Shown in pieces: positions 12,382 to 42,868 of a DNA stretch of 64,000 nt; position 1 is the stretch's first letter; each line of letters starts with the position of its first letter. Source of the stretch: Desulfotomaculum nigrificans DSM 574. Its GTDB lineage: Bacteria; Bacillota; Desulfotomaculia; Desulfotomaculales; Desulfotomaculaceae. The stretch spans positions 2,445,755 to 2,509,754 of the forward strand of contig NZ_KI912183.1 in the NCBI RefSeq assembly GCF_000189755.2. Direction: 5' to 3'. The translations under genes and the position numbers were made by a program. Below the pieces are notes generated by a model. That model searched no databases and was not told where the DNA came from. It saw only the letters and a program-made list of their open reading frames with translations.

Positions 12382-12640
12382 AGAAAACCACCACCAAGAT
12401 AAGACCTTCCTATATTAGAAGGTATTGCTGTTATCCAGAGAGAACGATCAATCGAAGTGCCGATAAATCACATTCTATGATTGTTTACCAACCGGAAAAA
12501 CCTATACAATATTGTTTACATTATACCACCGGTTTAAAATTGTGTCTTAATTATGATATTATGAGTTTTCAAACATTGGTTTAAAAGGTTGTTTACGGCT
12601 TTAAATATGTGTTATTATTGTCTTCGGGTAGTATCCCTTT
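12382..12640. other. AT-rich intergenic region upstream of cca and of the pan leader
   Basis: No coding region is seen. It must hold the promoters of cca (-) and of the pan leader (+). Candidate elements such as TTTACA at 12515-12520 and TTTACG near 12593 occur, but none is convincing enough to call. Confidence 0.3.
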
Positions 12641-12698
12641 GAGGAACTACACCTGTTAGACGTATTTCGTGTTCGAAACAAGCAGCTGCATTTAACAG
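12626..12698 (+). promoter_or_regulatory. Two leader stem-loops with bulged A, possible pan RNA motif
   Basis: The first hairpin (12626-12653) pairs GTAGT with ACTAC, flanked by G-C pairs around a bulged A51, and closes on UCC/GGA. The second (12653-12698) pairs CTGTTA with TAACAG around an inner TTTCG/CGAAA hairpin. Both precede a DUF2520-panB-panC-panD operon. A conserved 'pan' RNA with bulged adenines in panB leaders of Firmicutes has been described; equivalence to it is an inference from position and general shape. Confidence 0.4.
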
Positions 12699-12743
12699 AC
12701 AATCTAATATAATTTATTTTCCGCTTGGAGCCGGGTGGACCGA

Positions 12744-12806
12744 GACGGGAGGTGTGTTTATGTTGAAAAAAACCTTTCGAGTCTGCGGGAGGTTTTTTGT
12801 GTTTTT
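12744..12806 (+). terminator. Attenuator: alternative antiterminator and terminator hairpins in the pan leader
   Basis: The terminator form pairs AAAAAACCT (12767-12775) with AGGTTTTTT (12790-12798) ahead of GTGTTTTTTT. The competing form pairs GACGGGAGGT (12744-12753) with ACCTTTC-GA-GTC (12772-12783), using the same ACCT. The two cannot coexist, as in transcription attenuation. The competing form also covers the ribosome binding site of the 16-codon leader ORF. Confidence 0.55.
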
Positions 12807-21098: not shown

Positions 21099-21677
21099 AT
21101 GAAATTATCAACCCGGGAAATAGTGCTGGCTGGACTGATGGCGGCGGTGATGGTGGTGGTTACGGTTATTACCAGGATACCCTTTGTACATAGTGTGGTT
21201 CCCTTTAGTATGCAACCGTTAATAGCCTTATTAGCCGGGATTCTACTGGGACCCAGAATAGGGGCGTTGAGTATGATCGTTTACCTGGCTTTGGGTTTAG
21301 TGGGGGTACAGGTTTTCGCCACCGAACCCTTTGGTGGACCCGGTTATATTCTTAAACCAAGCTTTGGCTTTTTGCTGAGTTATCCCTTGGTGGCCTACAT
21401 CACCGGAAAGATCCTGGGGTACCAACAGAATCCTAAAATTGGAAATTATTTGCTGGCCGCCGGGGTCGGCGTGGTTATTATTTATCTAATAGGTCTACCC
21501 TATGTCTATATGATTCTTAATTTTTACCTGGGTAAAGTTACCTCAGTGGCTACCGTAATAAAATTGTTTTTCCTGCCCTTTATTCTATGGGATCTACTAA
21601 AGGCGGTGGCGGTAGCCGCTCTGGCCCGGGCCATTCACCGGCGCTTGCCGGAATTTTCACCCTCTGTAGAAAAGTAA
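21099..21677 (+). CDS. bioY: Biotin transporter substrate-binding component BioY
   Basis: A 192-residue S-component with about six membrane helices, and the family motifs VPFSMQPLIALLAGILLGPR near residue 40 and GGPGYILKPSFGFLLSYP near 80. It captures biotin and works with the ECF energising module, which is not in this window. A BirA operator lies directly upstream, so expression should fall when biotin is plentiful. No biotin synthesis genes are seen here. Confidence 0.95.
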   Translation: MKLSTREIVLAGLMAAVMVVVTVITRIPFVHSVVPFSMQPLIALLAGILLGPRIGALSMIVYLALGLVGVQVFATEPFGGPGYILKPSFGFLLSYPLVAYITGKILGYQQNPKIGNYLLAAGVGVVIIYLIGLPYVYMILNFYLGKVTSVATVIKLFFLPFILWDLLKAVAVAALARAIHRRLPEFSPSVEK

Positions 21678-21707
21678 AGGCTGTCGGAAATGACCGACAG
21701 CCTTTAC
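21674..21707. terminator. Bidirectional terminator between bioY and the converging gene
   Basis: A 14-bp perfect stem GTAAAGGCTGTCGG / CCGACAGCCTTTAC with a 6-nt loop, overlapping the bioY stop and ending 2 nt before the stop of the minus-strand gene. It serves both converging genes. Confidence 0.85.
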
Positions 21708-21708
21708 T

Positions 21709-22365
21709 TTAAGCCAGGGCAACTTTTTTAATTTCCTCCAGCCCGACTCGCTCCACAAATTTAAACATCCGCTCGCCGTTTTTAGCATTTTCTTTATAGA
21801 AGTTGATGAGCTTGGTGGCTACGGCAACCACCTCATCGATGGTTAAGTCTTCGGCCAATAACTGGCCAATGTGCGGCACTGAGCCGGAGTTACCCCCAAT
21901 TACCACCGTAAAGCCGTTAGGCTTACCAAAGGCCCCAAAGTCCCTCATCCAGGCTTCACAGCAATTCAAGGGGCAGCCGGAGATACCCATTTTTAACTTG
22001 TTGGGCATGGCCATGCCGCTGAATAACTTATCTAGCTTGTCGGCCAGGGCCAGGGAATCCTGTTTACCGTACTTACAGAAAGTGGTACCGGGGCAGGCCT
22101 GAACGCTTCTTACGCACAGACCGGTGGCCGGAGCCGGTTCCATGCCCAAGTCCGCCCATACTTTGTCCACATCCTCACCCTTAATGCCCACTAAAGCAAT
22201 GCGCTGGGAGGCGGTAAGTTTAACCACCGGAATTTGGTATTTTTCTACTGCATCCGCCAGTTTTCGTAATATCTCCGCATTGAGCAAACCCGCCGTGATT
22301 TTGGGTACGATGGCATAGGTTTGATTATCCCTTTGTAAAATCGCGCCTTTTGGATTATCAGCCAT
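21709..22365 (-). CDS. Small nitrite/sulfite reductase-like siroheme-[4Fe-4S] protein
   Basis: A 218-residue protein that corresponds to one half of a sulfite/nitrite reductase. A ferredoxin-like half domain (ASQRIALVGIKGEDVDKVWA) is followed by the siroheme/[4Fe-4S] ligands CPGTTFCKYG and GISGCPLNCCEAW (C-X5-C ... C-X3-C). AAGGAGGAG lies before ATG 22365. The frame runs open further upstream to 22533, but that part precedes the ribosome binding site and is dismissed. Full enzymes have two such halves; single-domain ones occur in sulfate reducers and methanogens and often have no proven activity. It stands alone, convergent with bioY. Confidence 0.85.
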   Translation of the reverse strand: MADNPKGAILQRDNQTYAIVPKITAGLLNAEILRKLADAVEKYQIPVVKLTASQRIALVGIKGEDVDKVWADLGMEPAPATGLCVRSVQACPGTTFCKYGKQDSLALADKLDKLFSGMAMPNKLKMGISGCPLNCCEAWMRDFGAFGKPNGFTVVIGGNSGSVPHIGQLLAEDLTIDEVVAVATKLINFYKENAKNGERMFKFVERVGLEEIKKVALA

Positions 22366-22564: not shown

Positions 22565-23359
22565 TTGTTACTGGCCATTGATATCGGTAATACCAACATC
22601 GTTTTCGGGGTGTTTTCTGATAAATCATTGGTGGCGGATTGGCGGCTGGCCACGGATCGCAACCGGACGGCCGATGAGTACGGTGTGTTATTAAAGGAAC
22701 TCTTTAACTTATCGGGAATTAACATGAAGTCTGTGGAAGCAATTGTTATCTCTTCGGTGGTGCCACCGGTAAATGCTTTAATAGAATCCATGGCTAAAAA
22801 GTTTTTTCATCTTAACCCTATTTTAGTAGGCCCCGGTATAAAAACCGGCATATCCATTAAGGCCGATAACCCCAGGGAGGTGGGGGCAGACCGTATCGTT
22901 AATGCGGTGGCGGCTTACTCTCTTTATGGTGGACCGCTGATCATCGTTGACTTTGGTACGGCCACCACCTTTTGTTGTGTTACAGCCCGGGGGGAATACC
23001 TGGGCGGGGCCATTGCCCCGGGTATTGGTATCTCCACTGAGGCTTTGTTTTCCAGGGCTGCGAAACTACCCCGGGTGGAATTAATAAAACCCCCTTCGGT
23101 GATTGGCAAAAATACTGTTACCGCCATGCAGTCCGGTATTATTTACGGCTTTGCCGGGCAGGTGGAAATGTTGGTTAAACGCATGAAAGAGGAACTGGGA
23201 GAAGAGGCTAAGGTCATTGCCACCGGGGGATTGGCCAGGGTCATGGCCCAGGAGGTAGCGGTAATTGATAAGATAGAGCCTAACCTGACCTTGATCGGAT
23301 TAAGAATAATTTATGAGCGAAACCGGGCGGCTGTTCATGGAGGTCAACCATGCAGATAG
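22565..23359 (+). CDS. coaX: Type III pantothenate kinase
   Basis: About 264 residues. The ATP-binding motif [16 protein letters not shown] is at the very start, followed by [12 protein letters not shown] and [13 protein letters not shown] of the ASKHA fold. It phosphorylates pantothenate, the product of the pan operon in this window, as the first step to CoA. TTG 22565 follows CAGGGAG at a normal distance; the open frame back to 22427 has no ribosome binding site and exceeds the family length. It overlaps dusB by 10 bp. Confidence 0.94.
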
Positions 23360-24321
23360 GTTCTGTGAAGCTGGCTAACCCGGTGGTAGCAGCACCTATG
23401 GCCGGTGTAACGGATCGAGCCTACCGCATCCTGGCCCGGGAGCAGGGATGTGGACTGGTGGTGACGGAAATGGTCAGCGATTTGGCTTTAATTTATGCTA
23501 ACCCCCGTACTTACCGCATGTTGGACTTCCGGGGCGAAGCACCGCCCTTAAGTGTACAAATATTTGGTTCTAATCCGGAAACCATGGGCCAGGCCGCAGC
23601 CATTGTAGTTGAGCGAGGGGCCAATATTGTGGACATCAATATGGGTTGCCCCACACCTAAAATCGTTAAAAACGGTGAGGGCAGTGCACTCATGAAAAAC
23701 CCCGGCTTGGCGGCCAGAATTGTAGCCGCGGTGGTGGCGGCTGTGCCAGGCGTACCGGTAACGGTAAAAATGCGTAAGGGCTGGGACGAAACTTCTGTCA
23801 ACGCAGTGGAGTTGGCCCAGGCCGTTGTCGAGGCTGGTGCAGCAGCGGTGGCTGTGCATGGACGAACCCGCAATCAGTTTTACAGCGGTAAAGCTGATTG
23901 GGATATTATCAGACAGGTTAAAGAAGCGGTTAAAGTACCGGTGATTGGCAACGGAGATATTTGGCATGCCCGGGATGCCGCCCGCATGATGGCGGAGACA
24001 GGCTGCGATGGTGTGATGATCGGTCGGGCGGCCATGGGTAATCCCTGGATATTCCGGGATATTATCCATTACCTGGCCAATGGTGAGGAACTGCCGCCGC
24101 CTACACCGGCGGAAAGAATTGCTACCGCCCTCAGGCATCTGGATTTAATGATCGAATCTAAAGGAGAACAGGTGGCAGTTTTTGAAATGCGCAAGCATGC
24201 CGCCTGGTATACTAAAGGCATTCGCGGGGCGGCCCGGGTCAGGGAATTCATTAACAAAGCCAACACCCGGGAAGAAATAGAACATATTTTGCGAAGTCTT
24301 CTTGAACACCGAAAGCACTAG
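23350..24321 (+). CDS. dusB: tRNA-dihydrouridine synthase B
   Basis: A 323-residue FMN enzyme that reduces uridines in tRNA D-loops. Motifs are [35 protein letters not shown] with the catalytic Cys, [15 protein letters not shown] and [21 protein letters not shown] precedes ATG 23350, and the 10-bp overlap with coaX implies coupled translation. Confidence 0.95.
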
Positions 24322-24333
24322 GACTCACTCCGG

Positions 24334-24415
24334 GCAAAAACTGGTCGCCCTCCACGCGCCTTCCTGTCGCGAGCGGGCTAACGCGCACTTCCTGTGCGCG
24401 TTCCCAGTTTTTTGT
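24334..24415. repeat. Long composite palindrome, probable dispersed repeat
   Basis: CAAAAACTGG (from about 24335) pairs with CCAGTTTTTTG (ending near 24415). Inside are two smaller hairpins, one a perfect AACGCGCAC-TTCCT-GTGCGCGTT. Both inner hairpins carry TTCCTGT. The base composition is GC-rich and unlike the flanks. The minus-strand frame through it is low-complexity in character and not believed to be a gene. The rest of 24322-24635 holds AT-rich sequence without a clear promoter. Confidence 0.5.
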
Positions 24416-24635
24416 CCTCCGTTCGTCAAGTGCTTTTTGCGGTGCTCCGATAGGGTTCGCTCTTGGATAACAGAAGTCCCTGCTTTTTTGCTTTTTAATT
24501 TTTAAGCTGGTTACTCTAACCATTAACGATTAACCGTGGCAAACCTTTGGGTCAGCCTTTTAATTTTTTGGTATGCTTCCCCTTTTCGGGCATATGATTT
24601 TAAAGTAATACCCATCAGGGAAAGGGGGAAGCTAT

Positions 24636-25709
24636 ATGAACAAATTTGCCTTTGTTATTCATCCTTTGGATTGCAGTGATGTGGCCAGAAAGTTTAACTT
24701 TACCAAATATATGCCTGATGCCTTGGTGGAACGGGCATTGAAATTGCTGCCCCCTATCAAGATATCTTCCATAACCGGAATTCAATCGCCCAGCGCAAAG
24801 GCGGAAGGATTTTTTGTATCTTGTCTATTAACCGCCAGACAAATGATGTCTCTGCCTCGACTTTTTGTACTCAACAAAATTATTCAAGCCGTCCGGTTGG
24901 CTGAAAAAATGGGTGCTCAGGTAGTTGGTCTGGGGGCCTTTACCAAAGTAGTTGGGGATGCTGGCATTACCATTGCCAAGCATGTAAATATACCGGTGAC
25001 CACGGGTAATAGTTATACCGTGGCCACGGCGTTGGCAGGGGCGAAAAAAGCAGCTACCCTTATGGGTCACAACCTAAAAAAAGCCAGGGTTACGGTGGTG
25101 GGGGCAACCGGTTCCATAGGCAGTGTTTGTGCCTTGTCCCTGGCCAAGGATGTTAATAATCTGACACTGGTGGGCAGAAATGAGGCCAAGCTACACATTT
25201 TAGCTGACCGGATTTTGTACGAAACCGGATTGGCCGCCGAGGTAACTTGTAATGTTAAAGCAGCTTTAAGGAAATCCGACTTGGTGGTTACTGTAACCAG
25301 TGCCATGGATACCATTATTGAGCCGGAGGACCTAAAACCGGGAGCGGTGGTATGTGATGTGGCCAGACCCAGAGATGTATCCCGGCGGGTGGTGGAGGAA
25401 CGTGATGACGTGCTGGTTATTGAAGGAGGCATTGTTGAGGTACCCGGGGATGTAAACTTTAATTTTAACTTCGGTTTCCCCCCCAAAACTGCCTATGCCT
25501 GTATGGCGGAAACCATGATTCTGGCTTTGGAGGGAAGATTGGAAAGCTATACCCTGGGCAGGGACTTAACCCTAAAACAAGTGGAGGAAATGTATAGACT
25601 TGGTCAAAAGCACGGGTTTAAATTAGCAGGTTTTCGCAGTTTTGAAAAACCGATTACAGAGGAAGAGATTAATTTGATTAAACAGAGGGCAATAATAAAA
25701 GTGTCCTAA
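24636..25709 (+). CDS. Acyl-ACP reductase (AAR)-like Rossmann protein
   Basis: A 357-residue protein. It resembles the cyanobacterial long-chain fatty acyl-[acyl carrier protein] reductase over its whole length: an N-terminal half with PPIKISSITG and VVGLGAFTKVV, then TTGNSYTVATA, the NADPH motif VVGATGSIGSVCALSLA, VIEGGIVEVPGD and the C-terminal YACMAETMILALEG. Cys289 in that last segment aligns with the Cys that forms the acyl-enzyme in the cyanobacterial enzyme. No aldehyde-deformylating oxygenase is nearby. Automated tools may call it a shikimate dehydrogenase-like protein. It stands alone before the greA promoter with AGGGAAAGGGGG upstream. Confidence 0.75.
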   Translation: MNKFAFVIHPLDCSDVARKFNFTKYMPDALVERALKLLPPIKISSITGIQSPSAKAEGFFVSCLLTARQMMSLPRLFVLNKIIQAVRLAEKMGAQVVGLGAFTKVVGDAGITIAKHVNIPVTTGNSYTVATALAGAKKAATLMGHNLKKARVTVVGATGSIGSVCALSLAKDVNNLTLVGRNEAKLHILADRILYETGLAAEVTCNVKAALRKSDLVVTVTSAMDTIIEPEDLKPGAVVCDVARPRDVSRRVVEERDDVLVIEGGIVEVPGDVNFNFNFGFPPKTAYACMAETMILALEGRLESYTLGRDLTLKQVEEMYRLGQKHGFKLAGFRSFEKPITEEEINLIKQRAIIKVS

Positions 25710-25738: not shown

Positions 25739-25767
25739 TTGACAAATAATACCGGGGTTCTTATAAT
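25739..25767 (+). promoter_or_regulatory. Consensus promoter of greA-lysS
   Basis: TTGACA (25739-25744), 17-bp spacer, TATAAT (25762-25767): a perfect 12 of 12 match. It gives a leader of about 130 nt before greA. Confidence 0.85.
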
Positions 25768-25903: not shown

Positions 25904-26380
25904 ATGAAAGAAAAAGATGTTATGTTAACGGTGACTGGATTAAAACAGTTGGAGGAAGAACTGGAGCAGCTAAAAACGGTAAAAAGACGCCAGGTGGCCG
26001 AGAGAATCAAACAGGCCATTGAGTTTGGTGATATCAGTGAGAACTCCGAGTATGAAGATGCTAAAAACGAGCAGGCCTTCATTGAGGGTAGAATACTAAC
26101 TCTGGAAAAAATGCTGCGCAACGCCAAAATTATTGATGACGAGAACCTGGGCAATGAAGTGGTATCCCTTGGTTCAAAGGTGCGGCTTAAGGATCTGGAG
26201 TTCGGGGATGAATTTGAATATACCATAGTGGGTTCTGTAGAGGCAGACCCGGATAAAAATAAGATTTCCAATGAGTCACCGGTGGGTAAAGCTATTTTAG
26301 GACAGCCTAAAGGCAGTATAGTGGAGGTATCCGTTCCAGCCGGTGTCCTTAAATATGAGATATTAGATATCATTAAGTAG
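25904..26380 (+). CDS. greA: Transcription elongation factor GreA
   Basis: A 158-residue GreA. The N-terminal coiled coil ends in the acidic tip [19 protein letters not shown], which enters the RNA polymerase channel. The C-terminal FKBP-like domain has [18 protein letters not shown]. It rescues backtracked polymerase by stimulating transcript cleavage. AAGGAG precedes the ATG, and lysS follows after 25 nt. Confidence 0.97.
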
Positions 26381-26405
26381 ATAGTGTCTGGAGGTTTTGA
26401 AGTTC

Positions 26406-27935
26406 ATGGCAGACATGCAGGAAAAGAAACAAGTTCAGCCGGCTCCGCCTGAAGCGGAAGCCGGCCAAAACAATGTAGAGGACCTTAACGAACTTATGAA
26501 GGTCCGCAGAGAAAAACTCAATGAACTTATTAGTCAAGGGATAGACCCCTACGGGCAGAAGTTTGAGCGTACTCATCTAACGGCTGATATTATAAATAAT
26601 TTTGCAGCCATGGAAGGACAAACTGTGGTGATTGCCGGCCGGATCATGGCCAAAAGGGTGATGGGCAAGGCCAGTTTTGCCAATTTGCAAGACAGTGCCG
26701 GCAATATCCAAATCTATGCCCGGTTAGATGATTTAGGAGCAGAAGAATACAGCCGGTTTGAAAAATTGGATATCGGCGACATCATTGGCTGTTCCGGCAA
26801 GGTCTTTAAAACCCGTAAAGGTGAAATTACCGTACATATTGAAAAATATACCATGTTGGCCAAGTCATTACGTCCTCTCCCTGAGAAGTGGCATGGTCTT
26901 AAAGATGTTGACCTGCGCTACCGTCAACGGTACGTGGATTTAATTGTCAATCCGGAGGTTAAACAGACCTTTGTCATTAGAAGTAGAATTGTCAGGGCCA
27001 TTCGTAACTACCTGGATCAAAGGGGTTTTCTGGAAGTAGAAACCCCCATGATGCATCCCATTGCCGGTGGAGCCAGTGCCCGGCCCTTTATTACCCACCA
27101 TAATGCCCTGGACATGAATCTCTACATGAGAATTGCTCCGGAACTTTATCTCAAGCGCTTGCTGGTGGGTGGCTTCGATAAGGTTTATGAAATTAACCGA
27201 AACTTCCGTAATGAGGGGATTTCCACCAAACACAACCCCGAGTTCACCTCCCTTGAATTGTATCAAGCCTATGGTGACTACCATGACATGATGGATCTTA
27301 CCGAAGATCTCATTTCCCATGTGGCCCGGGAAGTGCTGGGTACAACCACTTTAGAGTATGAAGGAGTAGAAATTAGTTTAGCCAAACCATGGCGCAGGGT
27401 CCCTATGCTGGAAATCGTTAAAGAACACTCTGGTCTGGATTTTACCCAGCTCAAGGATGATCAGGCAGCTTACGATGCCGCCAAGGGGTTGGGTCTGGAA
27501 ATTGAACCCGGTGCTAAATGGGGAGATATCCTAAATACTGTGTTCGAGGAAATGGTTGAGGAAAAGCTTATTCAACCGACTTTCGTTATTGATTATCCGG
27601 TTGAAATTTCCCCTCTGGCTAAACGTCATAAGGAACACCCGGAATTAACCTACCGTTTTGAACTGTTTATTTACGGACGAGAAATGGCCAATGCCTTCTC
27701 CGAGCTTAATGACCCTATAGACCAAAAGGGCCGGTTTCTGGCTCAGGTAGAAAAGCGTGAGGCCGGAGATGACGAGGCTCAGATGTATGATGAAGATTTC
27801 GTACAAGCTCTGGAGTATGGTATGCCACCGGCCGGCGGCCTGGGTATCGGTATTGACCGTTTAGTCATGTTGTTGACTAACTCTTCTTCTATTAGAGACG
27901 TTATTTTGTTCCCGTTAATGAGGCCGAGGGATTAA
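26406..27935 (+). CDS. lysS: Lysine-tRNA ligase (class II)
   Basis: About 509 residues. An OB-fold anticodon domain ([19 protein letters not shown]) precedes the class II core with [18 protein letters not shown] (motif 1), [17 protein letters not shown] (motif 2) and [14 protein letters not shown] (motif 3). ATG 26406 is preferred over the in-frame TTG 26397, which is only 2 nt from CTGGAGG. Cotranscribed with greA and directly upstream of the rRNA operon, as in Bacillus. Confidence 0.96.
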
Positions 27936-33635: not shown

Positions 33636-33832
33636 GTTGTTAGCCTAAAGGGTATTCCTTAAGGGTCATGTTGCTGGACTATGGGGCATTTCTAACGGGT
33701 CCTGTTACTAAAAACAAGACCATAAAGGAATGCAGTATTAGTCCAACAACAGGACCAAAGAGGAATGCAGAATAAGTCCAACAGCTGACGGCCAAAAGCC
33801 AAAAGCTGACCCCAAAGCACTGCCCACAAGTT
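33636..33832 (+). repeat. Composite heptad/inverted-repeat element between 23S and 5S
   Basis: The left side has GGGTATTCCTTAAGGGTCA and GTTGCTGGACTAT; the right side has TTAGTCCAACAAC, ACAGGACC and GCCAAAAGCCAAAAGCTGACC with the tail CCAAAGCACTGCCC. The arms are imperfectly complementary. A related copy lies before the second 5S gene. Confidence 0.65.
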
Positions 33833-33840
33833 AACAATTT

Positions 33841-33957
33841 TCTGGTGGCGATACCGGAGGGGGTACACCTGTTCCCATCCCGAACACAGCAGTTAAGCCC
33901 TCCAGGGCCGATGGTACTTGGGGCTCACGCCCCTGGGAGAGTAGGTCGCTGCCAGAA
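33841..33957 (+). rRNA. rrf: 5S ribosomal RNA, copy 1
   Basis: About 117 nt. TCTGGTGGCG at the 5' end pairs with CGCTGCCAGA at the 3' end, with internal CCCATCCCGAACACAGCAGT and GGGAGAGTAGGTCGC. It is identical to the copy at 35104. Confidence 0.97.
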
Positions 33958-33969
33958 TAAATATATTAA

Positions 33970-34044
33970 TCCTCGATAGCTCAACGGTAGAGCAACCGGC
34001 TGTTAACCGGTAGGTTGTAGGTTCGAATCCTACTCGGGGAGCCA
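33970..34044 (+). tRNA. tRNA-Asn (GUU), copy 1
   Basis: A 75-nt cloverleaf with anticodon GTT in CTGTTAAC, acceptor TCCTCGA/TCGGGGA, and encoded CCA. It is the last gene of the main rRNA operon. Confidence 0.97.
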
Positions 34045-34046
34045 GT

Positions 34047-34078
34047 AAAAAACCCTTTGCTTATGCAAAGGGTTTTTG
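34047..34078 (+). terminator. rRNA operon terminator
   Basis: AAAAACCCTTTGC / GCAAAGGGTTTTT with a TTAT loop, directly after tRNA-Asn. Confidence 0.9.
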
Positions 34079-34149: not shown

Positions 34150-34776
34150 CTACCTACCTGGTAGAGCTTTAGTTTGTTTAGCCTTAAAAAAATGCCATCT
34201 AAATTTAATAGCTAAGAGGCGTAGAACAATAATAAATCCGGCAGTGACTAGCATCACTGTATTATGATTTACGTTGAGTCTATAGAGTGTGACATAAAGT
34301 ATGCCCCCGGCCACACAGGTCATGGCATAAAAATGTTTAGTCAGGACAGTTGGTACTTCGCCGGCCAGCATGTCCCTAATAATACCGCCCACCACCCCGG
34401 TAATAACGCCTAGTATGACTGCGCCGGTAAGGGAGATGTTAGCCGCTAATCCCCGGGAGACGCCAATACAAACAAAGGTGCCTAGACCCAGGGCATCAGC
34501 AATCATAATAACTGAATGAATTCTAAAAAATGCATTTGCAAAAAGGAAAGTTAAAATAGCAGCCGAAAGGGAGACGTAAATATATACTGGCTCAGTTAAG
34601 GCAAAAACAGGGGTGTTGCCTAAAAGAAGGTCCCTGGTGGTTCCCCCGCCAATGGCGGTGACCAGAGCCAGTACCATAACACCAAATAAGTCCATTTCCT
34701 TTTTAATGGCAATAAGGGCCCCAGAGACAGCAAAGGCAAAGGTGCCAAACAAATCAAAAAAATAAAGGACAGTCAT
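34150..34776 (-). CDS. TRIC-type cation channel family membrane protein
   Basis: A 208-residue protein with about seven hydrophobic helices and two repeated halves (UPF0126). The first half has AFAVSGALIAIKKEMDLFG and AIGGGTTRDLLLG; the second has VILGVITGVVGGIIRDMLAG. The GGG-R-D glycine kinks on two helices are the family hallmark. Bacterial TRIC proteins conduct K+/Na+; this one's role is not known. On the minus strand AAGGAGA precedes the ATG at 34776. It lies between two copies of the 5S-tRNA-Asn unit and is transcribed against them. Confidence 0.88.
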   Translation of the reverse strand: MTVLYFFDLFGTFAFAVSGALIAIKKEMDLFGVMVLALVTAIGGGTTRDLLLGNTPVFALTEPVYIYVSLSAAILTFLFANAFFRIHSVIMIADALGLGTFVCIGVSRGLAANISLTGAVILGVITGVVGGIIRDMLAGEVPTVLTKHFYAMTCVAGGILYVTLYRLNVNHNTVMLVTAGFIIVLRLLAIKFRWHFFKAKQTKALPGR

Positions 34777-34889: not shown

Positions 34890-35097
34890 GTATTGCTTAC
34901 TGGTCCTGTTGCTGGACTATAGAGCGCGGATTAAAATACCTTATCATAAACAGTTGACATAAGGCATGGACAGAGTTATAATATCATTCGTAAGAAACGA
35001 GTTAACCAATAACAAGACCAAAGAGTAATACAGTATAAGTCTAATAGCTAATGGCTAACAGCCAAAAGCCAGACCCCAAAGAATTACCCAACAGCAT
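34890..35097 (+). repeat. Second composite repeat element, carrying a promoter
   Basis: GGTCCTGTTGCTGGACTAT on the left and AACAAGACCAAAGAG... ATAAGTC, GCTAATAGCTAATGGCTAAC and AGCCAGACCCCAAAGAATTACCC on the right match parts of the element at 33636-33832. The middle differs and contains a consensus promoter. Confidence 0.65.
34954..34982 (+). promoter_or_regulatory. Consensus promoter for the second 5S-tRNA-Asn unit
   Basis: TTGACA (34954-34959), 17-bp spacer, TATAAT (34977-34982): a perfect match, 120 bp upstream of the second 5S gene. Confidence 0.8.
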
Positions 35098-35103
35098 AAA
35101 TTT

Positions 35104-35220
35104 TCTGGTGGCGATACCGGAGGGGGTACACCTGTTCCCATCCCGAACACAGCAGTTAAGCCCTCCAGGGCCGATGGTACTTGGGGCTCACGCCCCTGGG
35201 AGAGTAGGTCGCTGCCAGAA
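35104..35220 (+). rRNA. rrf: 5S ribosomal RNA, copy 2
   Basis: No difference from copy 1 (offset 1,263 bp) was found by eye. It has its own promoter rather than lying in the main rRNA transcript, since a terminator and an opposing gene intervene. Confidence 0.97.
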
Positions 35221-35232
35221 TAAATATATTGA

Positions 35233-35307
35233 TCCTCGATAGCTCAACGGTAGAGCAACCGGCTGTTAACCGGTAGGTTGTAGGTTCGAATCCTACTCGG
35301 GGAGCCA
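35233..35307 (+). tRNA. tRNA-Asn (GUU), copy 2
   Basis: Identical cloverleaf to copy 1. The 5S-tRNA spacer differs by one base (ATTGAT against ATTAAT), showing a recent or gene-converted duplication. Confidence 0.97.
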
Positions 35308-35310
35308 GTA

Positions 35311-35344
35311 AAAAAAGGCCTCTGCATATGCAGAGGCCTTTTTT
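35311..35344 (+). terminator. Terminator after the second tRNA-Asn
   Basis: AAAAAAGGCCTCTGC / GCAGAGGCCTTTTTT with an ATAT loop. Unlike the duplicated genes, it shares no sequence with the first terminator. Confidence 0.9.
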
Positions 35345-35550: not shown

Positions 35551-38148
35551 ATGGAATTTAATCGCTATACCCAAAAATCACGGGAAGCTGTGGCAGCAGC
35601 GCAGAATTTAGCTGCCCAGTGGCACCATCAAGAAATAAACGGGAAACATTTACTGATGGCTTTGTTAACCCAGGAAGGTGGCTTAACTCCTCGTTTTCTG
35701 GAACACGCCGGGGTAAATGTGGGTGTCCTGCAAAATCTGGTGCAGGGGTTGTTAAGAAAGGCACCCGCGGTCCATGGATATGAAGGTGCCTTACGGTTGG
35801 GCACTGGTTTAGCCAGGGTCTTTACCCGGGCGGAAAAAGAGGCCGGGGATATGAAAGACCAGTATATCAGTGTGGAGCATCTGTTACTGGCCCTGCTGGA
35901 AGAAGGGGAGAATGAGCTTAAGGAAGTCTTCCGTCAGGTGGGCTTGAGCCGGGAAACCCTGCTCAATTCACTACGGGCCATTCGAGGCAACCAGCAGGTA
36001 ACCAGCGAAAATCCCGAAGAAACTTACGAAGCCCTGGAGAAGTACGGGCGAGATTTAACCAGACTGGCGAAGGAAGGTAAATTAGACCCGGTCATTGGTC
36101 GGGATGATGAAATCCGCCGCACGGTAGAAATTTTGTCCCGCCGCACCAAGAACAACCCTGTTTTGATTGGCGAACCCGGTGTGGGGAAAACCGCCATTGT
36201 AGAAGGTTTAGCCCGGCGTATTGTGGCCGGGGATATACCGGAAGGCCTAAAAAACAAACGGGTGATTGCCCTGGATATGGGGGCCCTGATTGCCGGGGCC
36301 AAATACCGGGGAGAATTTGAAGAACGACTTAAGGCAGTGTTAAAAGAGGTTCAACGGTCCAACGGAGGTATTATCCTCTTTATAGATGAGTTGCATACGG
36401 TGGTGGGGGCCGGGGCTGCCGAAGGAGCCATGGATGCGGGTAATTTATTAAAACCCATGCTGGCCCGGGGCGAACTGCGAGCCATTGGTGCCACCACCCT
36501 GGATGAATATCGCAAGCATGTAGAAAAGGATGCCGCCCTGGAGAGACGATTTCAGCCGGTAATGGTCAACCCGCCTACGGTGGAAGATACCATCTCAATT
36601 TTAAGAGGCTTAAAGGAACGGTACGAGATACACCACGGGGTGCGGATTAAGGACAGTGCCCTGGTGGCGGCCGCCACCCTGTCTGACCGCTATATCTCCG
36701 ACCGGTTTTTACCGGACAAGGCCATTGACCTGATGGATGAGGCCGCGGCCCGACTGCGTACGGAGATAGATAGTATGCCTACTGCCTTAGATGAAATTAC
36801 CCGCCGGATCATGCGGCTGGAGATTGAAGAGGCGGCCCTAAAAAAAGAAAAGGACCCTATTTCCCAGGAACGATTAGAAAAATTACAAGAACAATTGGCC
36901 AACCTGCGGAGTGAAGCAGATGTTATGCGAACCCAATGGGAAGTAGAAAAACAAGCCATTTCCCGGGTCCGCCAACTGAAAAAGGAGATTGAAGAAACCA
37001 AGCTGGCCATTGAAAGGGCGGAAAGGGAATACGACCTTAACCGAATGGCCGAGTTAACCTATGGCAAGTTACCTGAGCTGGAGAAAAAGTTAAAGTCGGA
37101 AGAAGAGTTACTGGCGGGTAAAGAAAAGCACCATCGTTTGTTAAAAGAAGAAGTCGATGAGGAAGACATTGCCCGGGTGGTCAGCCGGTGGACCGGCATC
37201 CCCTTAGAAAAATTAATGGAGGGGGAAAAGGAAAAACTCATTCACTTAGATGAATTACTGCACCGGCGGGTAATTGGCCAGCATGAGGCGGTACAGGCGG
37301 TGGCTGATGCGGTACTAAGGGCCCGGGCCGGTATTAAAGATCCCAACCGTCCCATCGGTAGTTTTATTTTCCTGGGGCCCACCGGAGTAGGTAAAACTGA
37401 ACTGGCCAGGGCTTTGGCGCAAGCATTGTTTGATGATGAACGCAACATGATCCGTATTGATATGTCCGAATATATGGAGAAGCATACCGTGGCCCGGCTG
37501 ATCGGCGCCCCACCTGGTTATGTAGGTTACGATGAGGGAGGCCAGCTTACCGAAGCGGTACGCCGTAAACCTTACTCAGTCATTCTTTTTGATGAAATTG
37601 AAAAGGCCCATCACGATGTATTTAACATCATGTTACAGATTCTAGATGATGGAAGGTTAACAGACGGCCAGGGTCGCACCATTGACTTTAAAAACACCGT
37701 AATTATTATGACTTCCAATATTGGCAGCCATGAGATCCTGGAATTCCAAAGAAAAGGTGACGGGGACTACCGGCAGATGAAAAAGGCGGTAACCGATTTG
37801 CTGCAACGGCATTTTCGGCCGGAGTTTCTCAACCGGGTGGATGAAACAGTGGTATTCCACGCCCTGGAGCCAAAACATATGCAACAAATCACTACGTTAA
37901 TGCTGGAACGACTGGCCCGGCGTATTAAAGATACGGCTCGTATTGAGTTAACCTGGTCCGATAGTGCTGTGGTCTACCTGGCCCGTAAGGGATATGAACC
38001 CAGCTTTGGAGCCCGTCCCTTAAAGCGGCTTATTCAGCAGGAAGTAGAAACACCGCTGAGCCGTATGATGGTGAAAGGAGATGTTATCCCCGGTAATACC
38101 GTTCATATTGAGGCCAGCGGGGAACAGCTTGATTTGACAATAAAATAA
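35551..38148 (+). CDS. clpB: ATP-dependent disaggregase ClpB
   Basis: An 865-residue Hsp100 protein. An N-terminal Clp repeat domain is followed by the first AAA+ domain (GEPGVGKT near residue 206) and a coiled-coil M domain of about 120 residues (roughly 410-530, rich in Lys/Glu heptads). The second AAA+ domain has GPTGVGKT near 608 and the sensor region [10 protein letters not shown]. The long M domain marks ClpB rather than ClpC. It rescues aggregated protein with DnaK. GGGAGGG precedes the ATG. A CtsR-type site upstream suggests stress control shared with the ctsR operon. Confidence 0.95.
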
Positions 38149-40411: not shown

Positions 40412-42868
40412 ATGTTCCAAAGGTTTACTGAAAGAGCCAAGCATGTGTTGGTATTAGCTCAAGAAGAAGCACGCAGGTTAAGATACCCTAACATTGGTAC
40501 CGAACATATCCTGCTGGGGTTAATTAAACAAGGGGATAGCTTTGCCGCCAAAGCCCTGGAACAATTGGGTATTACCGCAGATAAAGTATCTGCCGTTTTA
40601 GAGCAAATGGTGGAGAAAGGAACCCAACCGATACTTGGCGATATTCCACCCACCCCCCGGGCTAAAAGGGTTTTGGAACTGGCTGTGGAAGAATCCCGCA
40701 TGTTAGGCCACAATTATGTGGGTACAGAACACCTGCTATTGGGCCTGATTCGTGAAGGTGAGGGGGTAGCGGCCCAGGTACTGAAATCTTTAGGGGCGGA
40801 TCTGGACCGGGTACGCCAGCAAATTATCAATATGCTGGGCGGTGCTCCGGGCGGCGCAGCCCCCGGTGGCCAGGGCCAAAGTTGCCCCGCCGGTGGATGT
40901 AAAACCGTCAGCCTGGATCAGTTTGGTCGGGATTTAACCGGATTGGCTAAAGAGGGGAAACTTGACCCGGTGGTGGGCCGGGCTAAAGAAATTGAGCGGG
41001 TAATTCAAGTGCTATCCCGCCGCACTAAAAATAACCCTGTCCTCATAGGGGAACCTGGTGTTGGTAAAACAGCCATTGCCGAGGGATTGGCCCAGCGCAT
41101 TGTGGAAGGCAATGTGCCTGAGATTTTGCTTAATCGCCGGGTGGTTACTCTGGATCTGGCCGGTATGGTGGCTGGCACCAAGTACCGGGGAGAATTTGAG
41201 GACCGGTTAAAGAAGATTATGGAAGAAATTCGGCAGGCAGGTAATGTTATATTATTCATCGATGAGCTGCATACCTTGATCGGCGCCGGCGCCGCTGAAG
41301 GGGCCATTGATGCCGCCAACATTCTAAAACCTGCCCTGGCCCGGGGAGAAATTCAAACCATTGGTGCCACCACCCTGGATGAATACCGTAAGTACATTGA
41401 AAAGGACCCGGCCCTGGAACGCCGTTTCCAACCAATTCAAGTGGATGAACCAACTGTTGAAGAAACCATCCAAATTTTACAGGGAATTCGGGATAAATAC
41501 GAAGCCCACCACCGGGTACGGATTACTGATGAGGCCATTACCGCCGCTGCCCGGTTATCAGACCGCTATATTACCGACCGCTTCCTGCCGGATAAGGCCA
41601 TTGACCTAATTGATGAGGCTGCCTCCCGGGTACGCATTAAGGCCTTTACTGCTCCCCCGGACTTGAAGGACAAGGAAAAGGAACTGGAGGCCCTGCGTAA
41701 GGAGAAGGAAGCGGCCATAAACAACCAGGAGTTTGAAAAGGCTGCCGAACTGCGTGACCGGGAACAAGTCCTCATGTCAGAGTTAAACCAGGCCCGGGAA
41801 TCCTGGAATCAAGCCAAGGGTGGCGATGGTCTGGTGGTAACCGAAGAGGATATTGCCGGCATTGTCTCCAGTTGGACCGGGGTACCGGTGCAAAAATTGG
41901 CCCAGGAAGAATCGGAAAAATTGCTTAACCTGGAGGAAGTGTTGCATCAGCGGGTGGTTGGCCAGGATGACGCGGTTAAAGCAGTATCCAGGGCTGTCCG
42001 CAGGGCCCGGGCCGGTCTGAAAGATCCTAAACGACCGGTAGGTTCCTTCATCTTCCTCGGCCCCACCGGTGTTGGTAAAACCGAATTAGCCAGGGCACTG
42101 GCTGAGGCTTTGTTTGGTGATGAGGATGCCCTGGTCAGAATTGATATGTCCGAATACATGGAGAAACATGCCGTTTCCCGCCTGGTGGGAGCGCCTCCTG
42201 GCTATGTAGGTTATGATGAGGGGGGCCAGCTGACCGAAGCTGTCAGAAGGAAACCCTATTCGGTGGTGCTGCTGGATGAAATAGAAAAGGCCCATCCGGA
42301 TGTATTTAACATTCTGCTGCAGGTATTGGAGGATGGCCGCCTGACGGACGCCAAAGGCCGCACGGTGGATTTCCGTAATACTGTTATCATCATGACCTCT
42401 AACGTTGGACTTTCCACCATCAAATCAGTGGGCAGGGTTGGTTTTGCCGCCCAGGCCGATCAAAACGAGGCGGAGTATGAAAAGATGAAGGAGCGGGTGG
42501 AAGAAGCTCTGAAACGTACCTTCCGCCCGGAATTCCTGAACCGTATAGATGAAACCATTGTATTCCACCCCTTGAATCGCGAGCACATCAAGCAGATTGT
42601 CGGTCTGATGCTGAAAGAAGTGGCTAAGCGCATGGAAGAGCATGAAGTATATGTAGAGTTTACCGAGGCAGCAAAAGAAAAACTGGCCGAGATCGGTTAT
42701 AGCGAGGAATACGGTGCCCGCCCGCTGCGGCGAGAAATTCAACGTAAGGTGGAGGACCGTTTATCCGAAGAATTAATCAAGGGTACCTTTAAAAAGGGCG
42801 ACAAAGTGGTTATCGACGTGGAGAACGGGGAATTTACCGTTCGCCAGGCCAGCCTGGCCACAGTGTAA
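40412..42868 (+). CDS. clpC: ATP-dependent unfoldase ClpC
   Basis: An 818-residue Hsp100. Two N-terminal Clp repeats ([20 protein letters not shown]) are followed by AAA+ 1 with GEPGVGKT near residue 212. A short M domain contains a UVR motif ([17 protein letters not shown]), and AAA+ 2 has GPTGVGKT near 549. The short M domain separates it from ClpB. It unfolds arginine-phosphorylated or adaptor-bound substrates for ClpP. ATG 40412 has AGGAGG 9 nt upstream. Last gene of the ctsR operon. Confidence 0.96.

Follow-up and report, generated by a model that had tools for sequence, protein, structure and literature searches.

A predicted acyl-thioester reductase of the AAR/PigE type at a conserved locus of anaerobic Firmicutes and its putative link to an aminotransferase

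Results

Organization and conservation of the locus

The window, which is the whole stretch of 64,000 nucleotides analyzed here, carries at 24636..25709 (+) a gene assigned to a stand-alone acyl-thioester reductase of the AAR/PigE type on the basis of the ORF list and profile and structure matches. We refer to this gene and its product as AARL. The reading frame is real; it starts with ATG, encodes 357 amino acids, and ends with a stop codon. A purine-rich, ribosome-binding-like AGGGGGA was read from the sequence 7–13 bases before the ATG (24623..24629, +). AARL is 83–89% identical to its orthologues of the same genus, and orthologues with 89% identity were found in another genome of this genus (G001) and in Desulforamulus putei. 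These relatives bear out the description of the host as an anaerobic Firmicute in the first-pass annotation.

A neighborhood comparison identified dusB (23350..24321, +) as the conserved upstream neighbor of AARL, and greA (25904..26380, +) and lysS (26397..27935, +) as its conserved downstream neighbors. The gap between dusB and AARL contains one terminator-like hairpin (24380..24402, +), against 2.6 expected by chance. A promoter-like sequence, TTGACA-17-TATAAT, precedes greA (25739..25767, +). Since it matches at 12 of 12 positions, we suggest that AARL need not share a transcript with greA-lysS in this genome.

Several other features were noted in the window. A direct repeat with 91% identity (33743–34077 and 35006–35343) carries a 5S rRNA and a tRNA-Asn in each copy and flanks a membrane-protein gene (34150–34776, −). 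The segments 36379–37628, inside a ClpC-like gene, and 41255–42312 share approximately 78% of their nucleotides, and this similarity points to the second as a putative paralogous gene downstream. The Rfam 'pan' motif (RF01749) is located at 12625–12752, upstream of the pantothenate gene region. A near-perfect palindrome of 40 bases (21671–21710), between bioY and a convergent sulfite-reductase-like gene, is probably a two-way terminator.

AARL was present in 58 of 60 near relatives, including all 54 of the good genomes among them, and is near-universal in its order. Across 398 genomes drawn from the phylum, 246 had a match (E 1e-20; fusions are included in this count), and relatives were also found on contigs of Armatimonadota, Abditibacteriota, and Chloroflexota. 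The surroundings are stable, with coaX-dusB upstream and greA-lysS downstream. In many Firmicutes, the gap between dusB and AARL holds two additional genes encoding an HTH protein of approximately 180 amino acids and a protein of approximately 305 amino acids, which we call the partner; most relatives encode the partner and the HTH regulator beside AARL, and the conserved order is dusB-[HTH-partner]-AARL-greA-lysS. Both genes are missing from this gap in the window, and no member of the HTH family was found in the genome to which the window belongs. A literature search on AAR homologues of Firmicutes gave nothing relevant. AARL, with a function so far only predicted, thus has a fixed chromosomal place and is found almost throughout a large group of Firmicutes that are anaerobic.

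Family, fold, and active-site residues of AARL

The top match of AARL among PDB sequences was PigE (E 5e-31, residues 36–349), followed by the AAR of S. elongatus (phmmer E 3e-27, residues 13–329 of AARL). The AlphaFold model, built with a 34-row alignment as input, had a pLDDT of 89.5. It matched AAR with a Foldseek E-value of 5e-22 and a VIA-align Z of 34 (326 residues aligned, 24% identity), and the carmabin TAD domain with a Z of 31.8; the next fold class reached a Z of 14. Homology with AAR over the whole length, as claimed in the first-pass annotation, is therefore confirmed by sequence and by structure. The enzyme class it proposed stands, and its choice of AAR as the nearest relative needs revision, because AARL scored 212.6 bits against the NCBIfam model of PigE (NF053554) and 122.5 bits against that of AcACP_reductase (TIGR04058). 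Since both scores are far below the curated cut-offs (850 and 449.7, respectively), we place AARL in the superfamily and in neither of the named families. A different characterized enzyme, whose similarity the first-pass annotation did not mention, is therefore closer than AAR. This is in part the outcome that the annotation had named as a refutation, yet the chemistry of PigE is the same.

All of the motifs quoted in the first-pass annotation are present. GNSYT (residues 124–128; 25005..25019, +) is the counterpart of GNTHT in AAR, and the dinucleotide loop GATGSIG (residues 156–162; 25101..25121, +) that of 162-GATGDIG-168. The block PGDVNFNFNFG (residues 270–280; 25443..25475, +) is near-invariant among stand-alone members bearing the cysteine. 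The cysteine within YACMAETMILALEG is exactly residue 289 of AARL (codon 25500..25502, +), and this predicted acyl-enzyme cysteine occupies the position of Cys294 in AAR. Cys289 was retained in 33 of the 34 rows of alignment A1, and the acyl-binding half shows no degeneration. The NADPH phosphate is bound in AAR by R189, R193, and R314 (PMC7089970). Their counterparts by alignment are R181 and K185 (25176..25190, +) and R309 (25560..25562, +). In 34, 28, and 30 of the 34 rows, respectively, the residue is R or K, which suggests NADPH as the cofactor of AARL. With these correspondences to AAR intact, the reductase half of AARL is also intact.

AARL thus shares with the AAR/PigE/TamH superfamily the three-domain fold over its whole length, the nucleotide loop, and the position of the acyl-enzyme cysteine. 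Given the conserved AAR fold, cysteine, dinucleotide loop, and phosphate positions, and an acyl-binding half without degeneration, the best class for AARL is that of a thioester-to-aldehyde reductase, and it probably has this activity, as predicted by homology. Other classes were rejected. The shikimate/quinate dehydrogenase model PF01488 matched the nucleotide-binding part only (residues 143–254, 45.3 bits), the match to ornithine cyclodeaminase was restricted to the same part, and the glutamyl-tRNA reductase model TIGR01035 scored 48.1 bits against a cut-off of 209.6 bits, at residues 103–253 only. In the tree, cyanobacterial AAR and PigE were both on long branches, and 6 of 28 inner branches were well supported. 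The tree shows only the nearness of AARL rows to transaminase fusions, and we rejected the placement of AAR and PigE as evidence.

Fusions and the aminotransferase

In 12 of the 60 near relatives, a protein of approximately 880–950 amino acids matched AARL at its C-terminal end. One of these (genome G021) is an aminotransferase-reductase fusion of 888 amino acids in the TamH order. Its gene lies at the ffh-mtaD locus beside a second aminotransferase and a member of the HTH family described above, and both aminotransferases of G021 score best against PigE. The genome of the window has no aminotransferase-reductase fusion. It encodes, at the syntenic ffh-mtaD place, a class III aminotransferase of the PigE type (G000:C1:878103-879524), which is the orthologue of the second aminotransferase of G021 (64% identity). 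Its best model was PigE (505.7 bits), and putrescine aminotransferase models reached 416 bits.

With a cut-off of E 1e-130 or better, the PigE-type aminotransferase was detected in 129 of the 398 genomes, and AARL accompanies it in 127 of these (odds ratio 80, p 3e-31, uncorrected for ancestry). The two genes are 7–19 kb apart in eight genomes and far apart in most, with a distance of 1.6 Mb in the genome of the window; G332 has the aminotransferase directly beside the fusion. About half of the genomes with AARL have no aminotransferase at this cut-off, and many of these also lack the fusion. No conserved neighbors that may serve as a clue to the substrate were found across 27 aminotransferase loci. 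In the genome of the window, the aminotransferase lies beside a methylthioadenosine/adenosylhomocysteine salvage cluster consisting of mtaD, a class II aldolase-like gene, ahcY, mtnA, and mtnP (L182 8104–16074). Fusions of transaminase and reductase in the TamH order were also observed on plasmids of Rhodobacterales, outside prodigiosin and tambjamine clusters (L193 1663–4251 and L194 1450–4155).

The reductase domain of PigE makes the aldehyde for its transaminase domain (PMC8341465), and TamH converts acyl-ACP to a fatty amine via the aldehyde (PMC9594044). It is chiefly because of this chemistry, together with the fusion, co-occurrence, and synteny, that we expect the product to be an amine. 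The genomic evidence suggests a transaminase as the next step for the aldehyde, a possible fate absent from the first-pass annotation. The same genes may also be read in the catabolic direction, in which the aminotransferase would deaminate an amine, e.g., a polyamine, to an aldehyde that AARL oxidizes to acyl-CoA. The high score against the putrescine aminotransferase models and the position beside ahcY, mtnA, and mtnP are consistent with this direction. We consider it quite improbable, as the PigE model scores higher (506 bits), PigE and TamH both run towards the amine, and AAR uses NADPH, which fits a reductive enzyme (PMC7089970).

A partner protein with the AAR fold

Of the 398 genomes, 291 carry the partner, among them 242 of the 246 with AARL (Fisher p 2e-51, uncorrected for ancestry), and 49 genomes keep the partner without a detectable AARL. 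In one Desulfobacterales contig (L082), partner and reductase form a single fused chain. No partner was found on plasmids. The genome of the window has two copies away from AARL (2912553–2913473 and 1774536–1775435), with 58 and 46% identity, respectively, to the partner of locus L045. The second partner copy of this genome is located beside a gene for a patatin-like phospholipase on the same strand (L086 9025–9936 and 10003–10917).

No match worth naming was obtained for the partner in Pfam or NCBIfam, and none in PDB sequences. In databases, the partner probably bears the annotation 'quinate 5-dehydrogenase', and a Thermus/Deinococcus family with this annotation is a candidate match. An uncharacterized family of Deinococcus-Thermus (deino9.00587) has been described as 'annotated as quinate 5-dehydrogenase' (PMC9425974).

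The model of the partner had a pLDDT of 91. Its top Foldseek match was AAR (rank 1, E 1.5e-6), and VIA-align gave a Z of 13.9 for AAR, 13.5 for TAD, and 10.5 for glutamate dehydrogenase. Paralogy with AARL at the sequence level found no support in profiles; hhalign gave no similarity when the fused L082 row was omitted, the profile comparison remained without a significant score after secondary structure was added, and the fold alone supports kinship. Helix 262–273 of the partner, TNVMEGVLVALL, has the same length as helix 288–299 of AARL, which starts with A288-C289. This equal length places the invariant Asn263 of the partner at the position of Cys289, and the invariant Glu266 at that of Glu292. 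A global alignment with secondary structure gave the same register of Cys289 and Asn263, which rests on the matched secondary structure. In place of the GxxGxxG loop, the partner has a DRFG motif. Judging from its model, the partner looks like an AAR-fold protein without the cysteine, and hence without thioester chemistry. The conserved polar residues R33, K97, E101, D128, R129, D147, D210, N263, and E266 argue against a mere relic. If the route to amines discussed below is right, a family without a Pfam or NCBIfam model would thereby gain a fold, an associated enzyme, and a role open to testing.

In some genomes, the slot behind the partner is occupied by proteins of 289–344 amino acids (L147 9476–10510, L097 2451–3338, and L102 2423–3292), and those of L147 and L097 precede greA. 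None of these proteins, which come from G151, G368, and G194 (344, 295, and 289 amino acids, respectively), had a profile match to AARL. They may be further-decayed copies of AARL.

Loss of the catalytic cysteine

Thirteen genomes contain both a fusion and a stand-alone AARL. In 10 of these, the stand-alone copy has W, S, L, F, G, or D instead of Cys at position 289, and L, F, and S all occur within one genus. Every fusion examined keeps the cysteine. The number of loss events is smaller than these counts, because nine of the 13 genomes belong to only two families, f29 and f5. Among genomes without a fusion, Cys289 was retained in all of 60 further stand-alone copies, a set that was not random, as half was taken from the higher-scoring matches; approximately ten divergent stand-alone copies without the cysteine were observed in genomes without a detected fusion. 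The copies lacking the cysteine are mostly open frames of 320–390 amino acids, commonly located between the partner and greA, and that of G060 has 511 amino acids. The fusion adjoins the partner and AARL, or AARL, in G247 and G162.

The simplest reading is that the fusion took over catalysis and that the old copy may have been kept for another role, perhaps binding the partner. The active enzyme, the fused enzyme, and the retained copies without the cysteine would form a natural series for the study of pseudoenzymes. Several families retain AARL genes without the cysteine in the usual chromosomal place, which also accords with a chiefly regulatory or structural locus. In this view, the HTH protein, the partner, and AARL would jointly sense a ligand, either an acyl group or a nucleotide, and catalysis would be dispensable. 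The operon includes an HTH gene, and the partner persists in the 49 genomes mentioned above. However, almost every non-divergent copy retains the cysteine and the nucleotide loop, no HTH family member occurs in the genome of the window, and the cysteine was mostly lost after the gain of an active fusion. We regard a chiefly regulatory or structural role as very unlikely.

Discussion

From the computed fold, residues, gene order, co-occurrence, and fusions, we infer an activity, a direction, a cofactor, a substrate, a link to the aminotransferase, and a role for the partner. An acyl group would be transferred from ACP or CoA to Cys289 as an enzyme thioester, as in the homologous enzymes. Hydride from NADPH, the cofactor predicted from R181, K185, and R309, would then release the aldehyde. 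The class III aminotransferase of the PigE type would most likely convert this aldehyde to a primary amine, a step suggested by the fusion, co-occurrence, and synteny. The partner may take part in this process, with a second subunit or an acceptor of the aldehyde as its most likely role. We moderately favor this split version of the TamH/PigE route from acyl thioester to aldehyde to amine. If true, these bacteria would have in common a core route at present known only from specialized pigment clusters.

The aldehyde may have other fates. Alkane synthesis was ruled out because the genome has no aldehyde-deformylating oxygenase; PF11266 gave no match at E-values up to 10 in the 3.05-Mb genome, and the Synechococcus control was positive, in line with the absence noted in the first-pass annotation. 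AARL may instead act as a fatty acyl-ACP reductase in lipid metabolism, with alcohols, ether lipids, or plasmalogens as end products and without a transaminase step. The similarity to AAR over the whole length is in keeping with such a role. In G064, G106, and G142, a DUF2229, HGD-D, and BadF-type trio, with the domains of the plasmalogen/ether-lipid reductase, directly precedes dusB/HTH-partner-AARL on the upstream side (L183 9861–12896, L184 9688–12726, and L187 8350–11398). In these three genomes, a PgpA-like gene is also found beside the aminotransferase, and one partner copy of the genome of the window neighbors the patatin-like phospholipase gene. However, the trio is linked to the locus in few genomes only, and the association with the aminotransferase is far stronger. 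Moreover, anaerobes form plasmalogens by the direct reduction of diacyl lipids (PMC9702350), which makes the plasmalogen fate proposed in the first-pass annotation unlikely. We consider the feeding of lipids without transamination to be unlikely overall.

The split route to amines may be extended. AARL and the partner may be the two subunits of one complex, where the ancient partner without the cysteine would receive, channel, or chemically change the aldehyde. With the aminotransferase, they would constitute a widespread, so far unseen pathway by which anaerobic Firmicutes turn acyl thioesters into amines or lipids that contain amines, and AARL pseudoenzymes would have evolved repeatedly after the takeover by fusions. 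We offer this extended scheme as speculation that is rather unlikely as a whole.

New in the present study are the AAR-fold partner, the association with the aminotransferase, and the recurrent loss of Cys289, and the other features may be compared with known systems. Cyanobacterial AAR (PDB 6jzq/6jzu/6jzy) has the fold of AARL, and its Cys294, GxxGxxG loop, and R189/R193/R314 have counterparts in AARL. In contrast, AAR is accompanied by ADO, which is absent here, and has other gene partners; the segment before GNSYT is shorter in AARL than in AAR, as it is in PigE. The carmabin TAD domain (PDB 9e4s family) also has the fold of AARL and binds NAD(H), and its cysteine was captured as a disulfide with dephospho-CoA (PDB 9e56). 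However, TAD is a domain of a large assembly-line protein and is 20% identical to AARL. The thioester-reductase domain of PigE, from prodigiosin biosynthesis (PDB 4ppm), shares the cysteine and the CDVxxPRD-like and GGxVE-like blocks with AARL. PigE combines reductase and transaminase in one chain of about 840–860 residues, whereas AARL comprises the reductase only, with 357 amino acids, and is encoded outside a pigment cluster. TamH, from the tambjamine pathway, has the same two activities, and the Firmicute fusions share its domain order. TamH uses NADH, whereas AARL has phosphate-binding positions like those of AAR; and the two activities that are fused in TamH are, by our assignment, split over two genes in the genome of the window.
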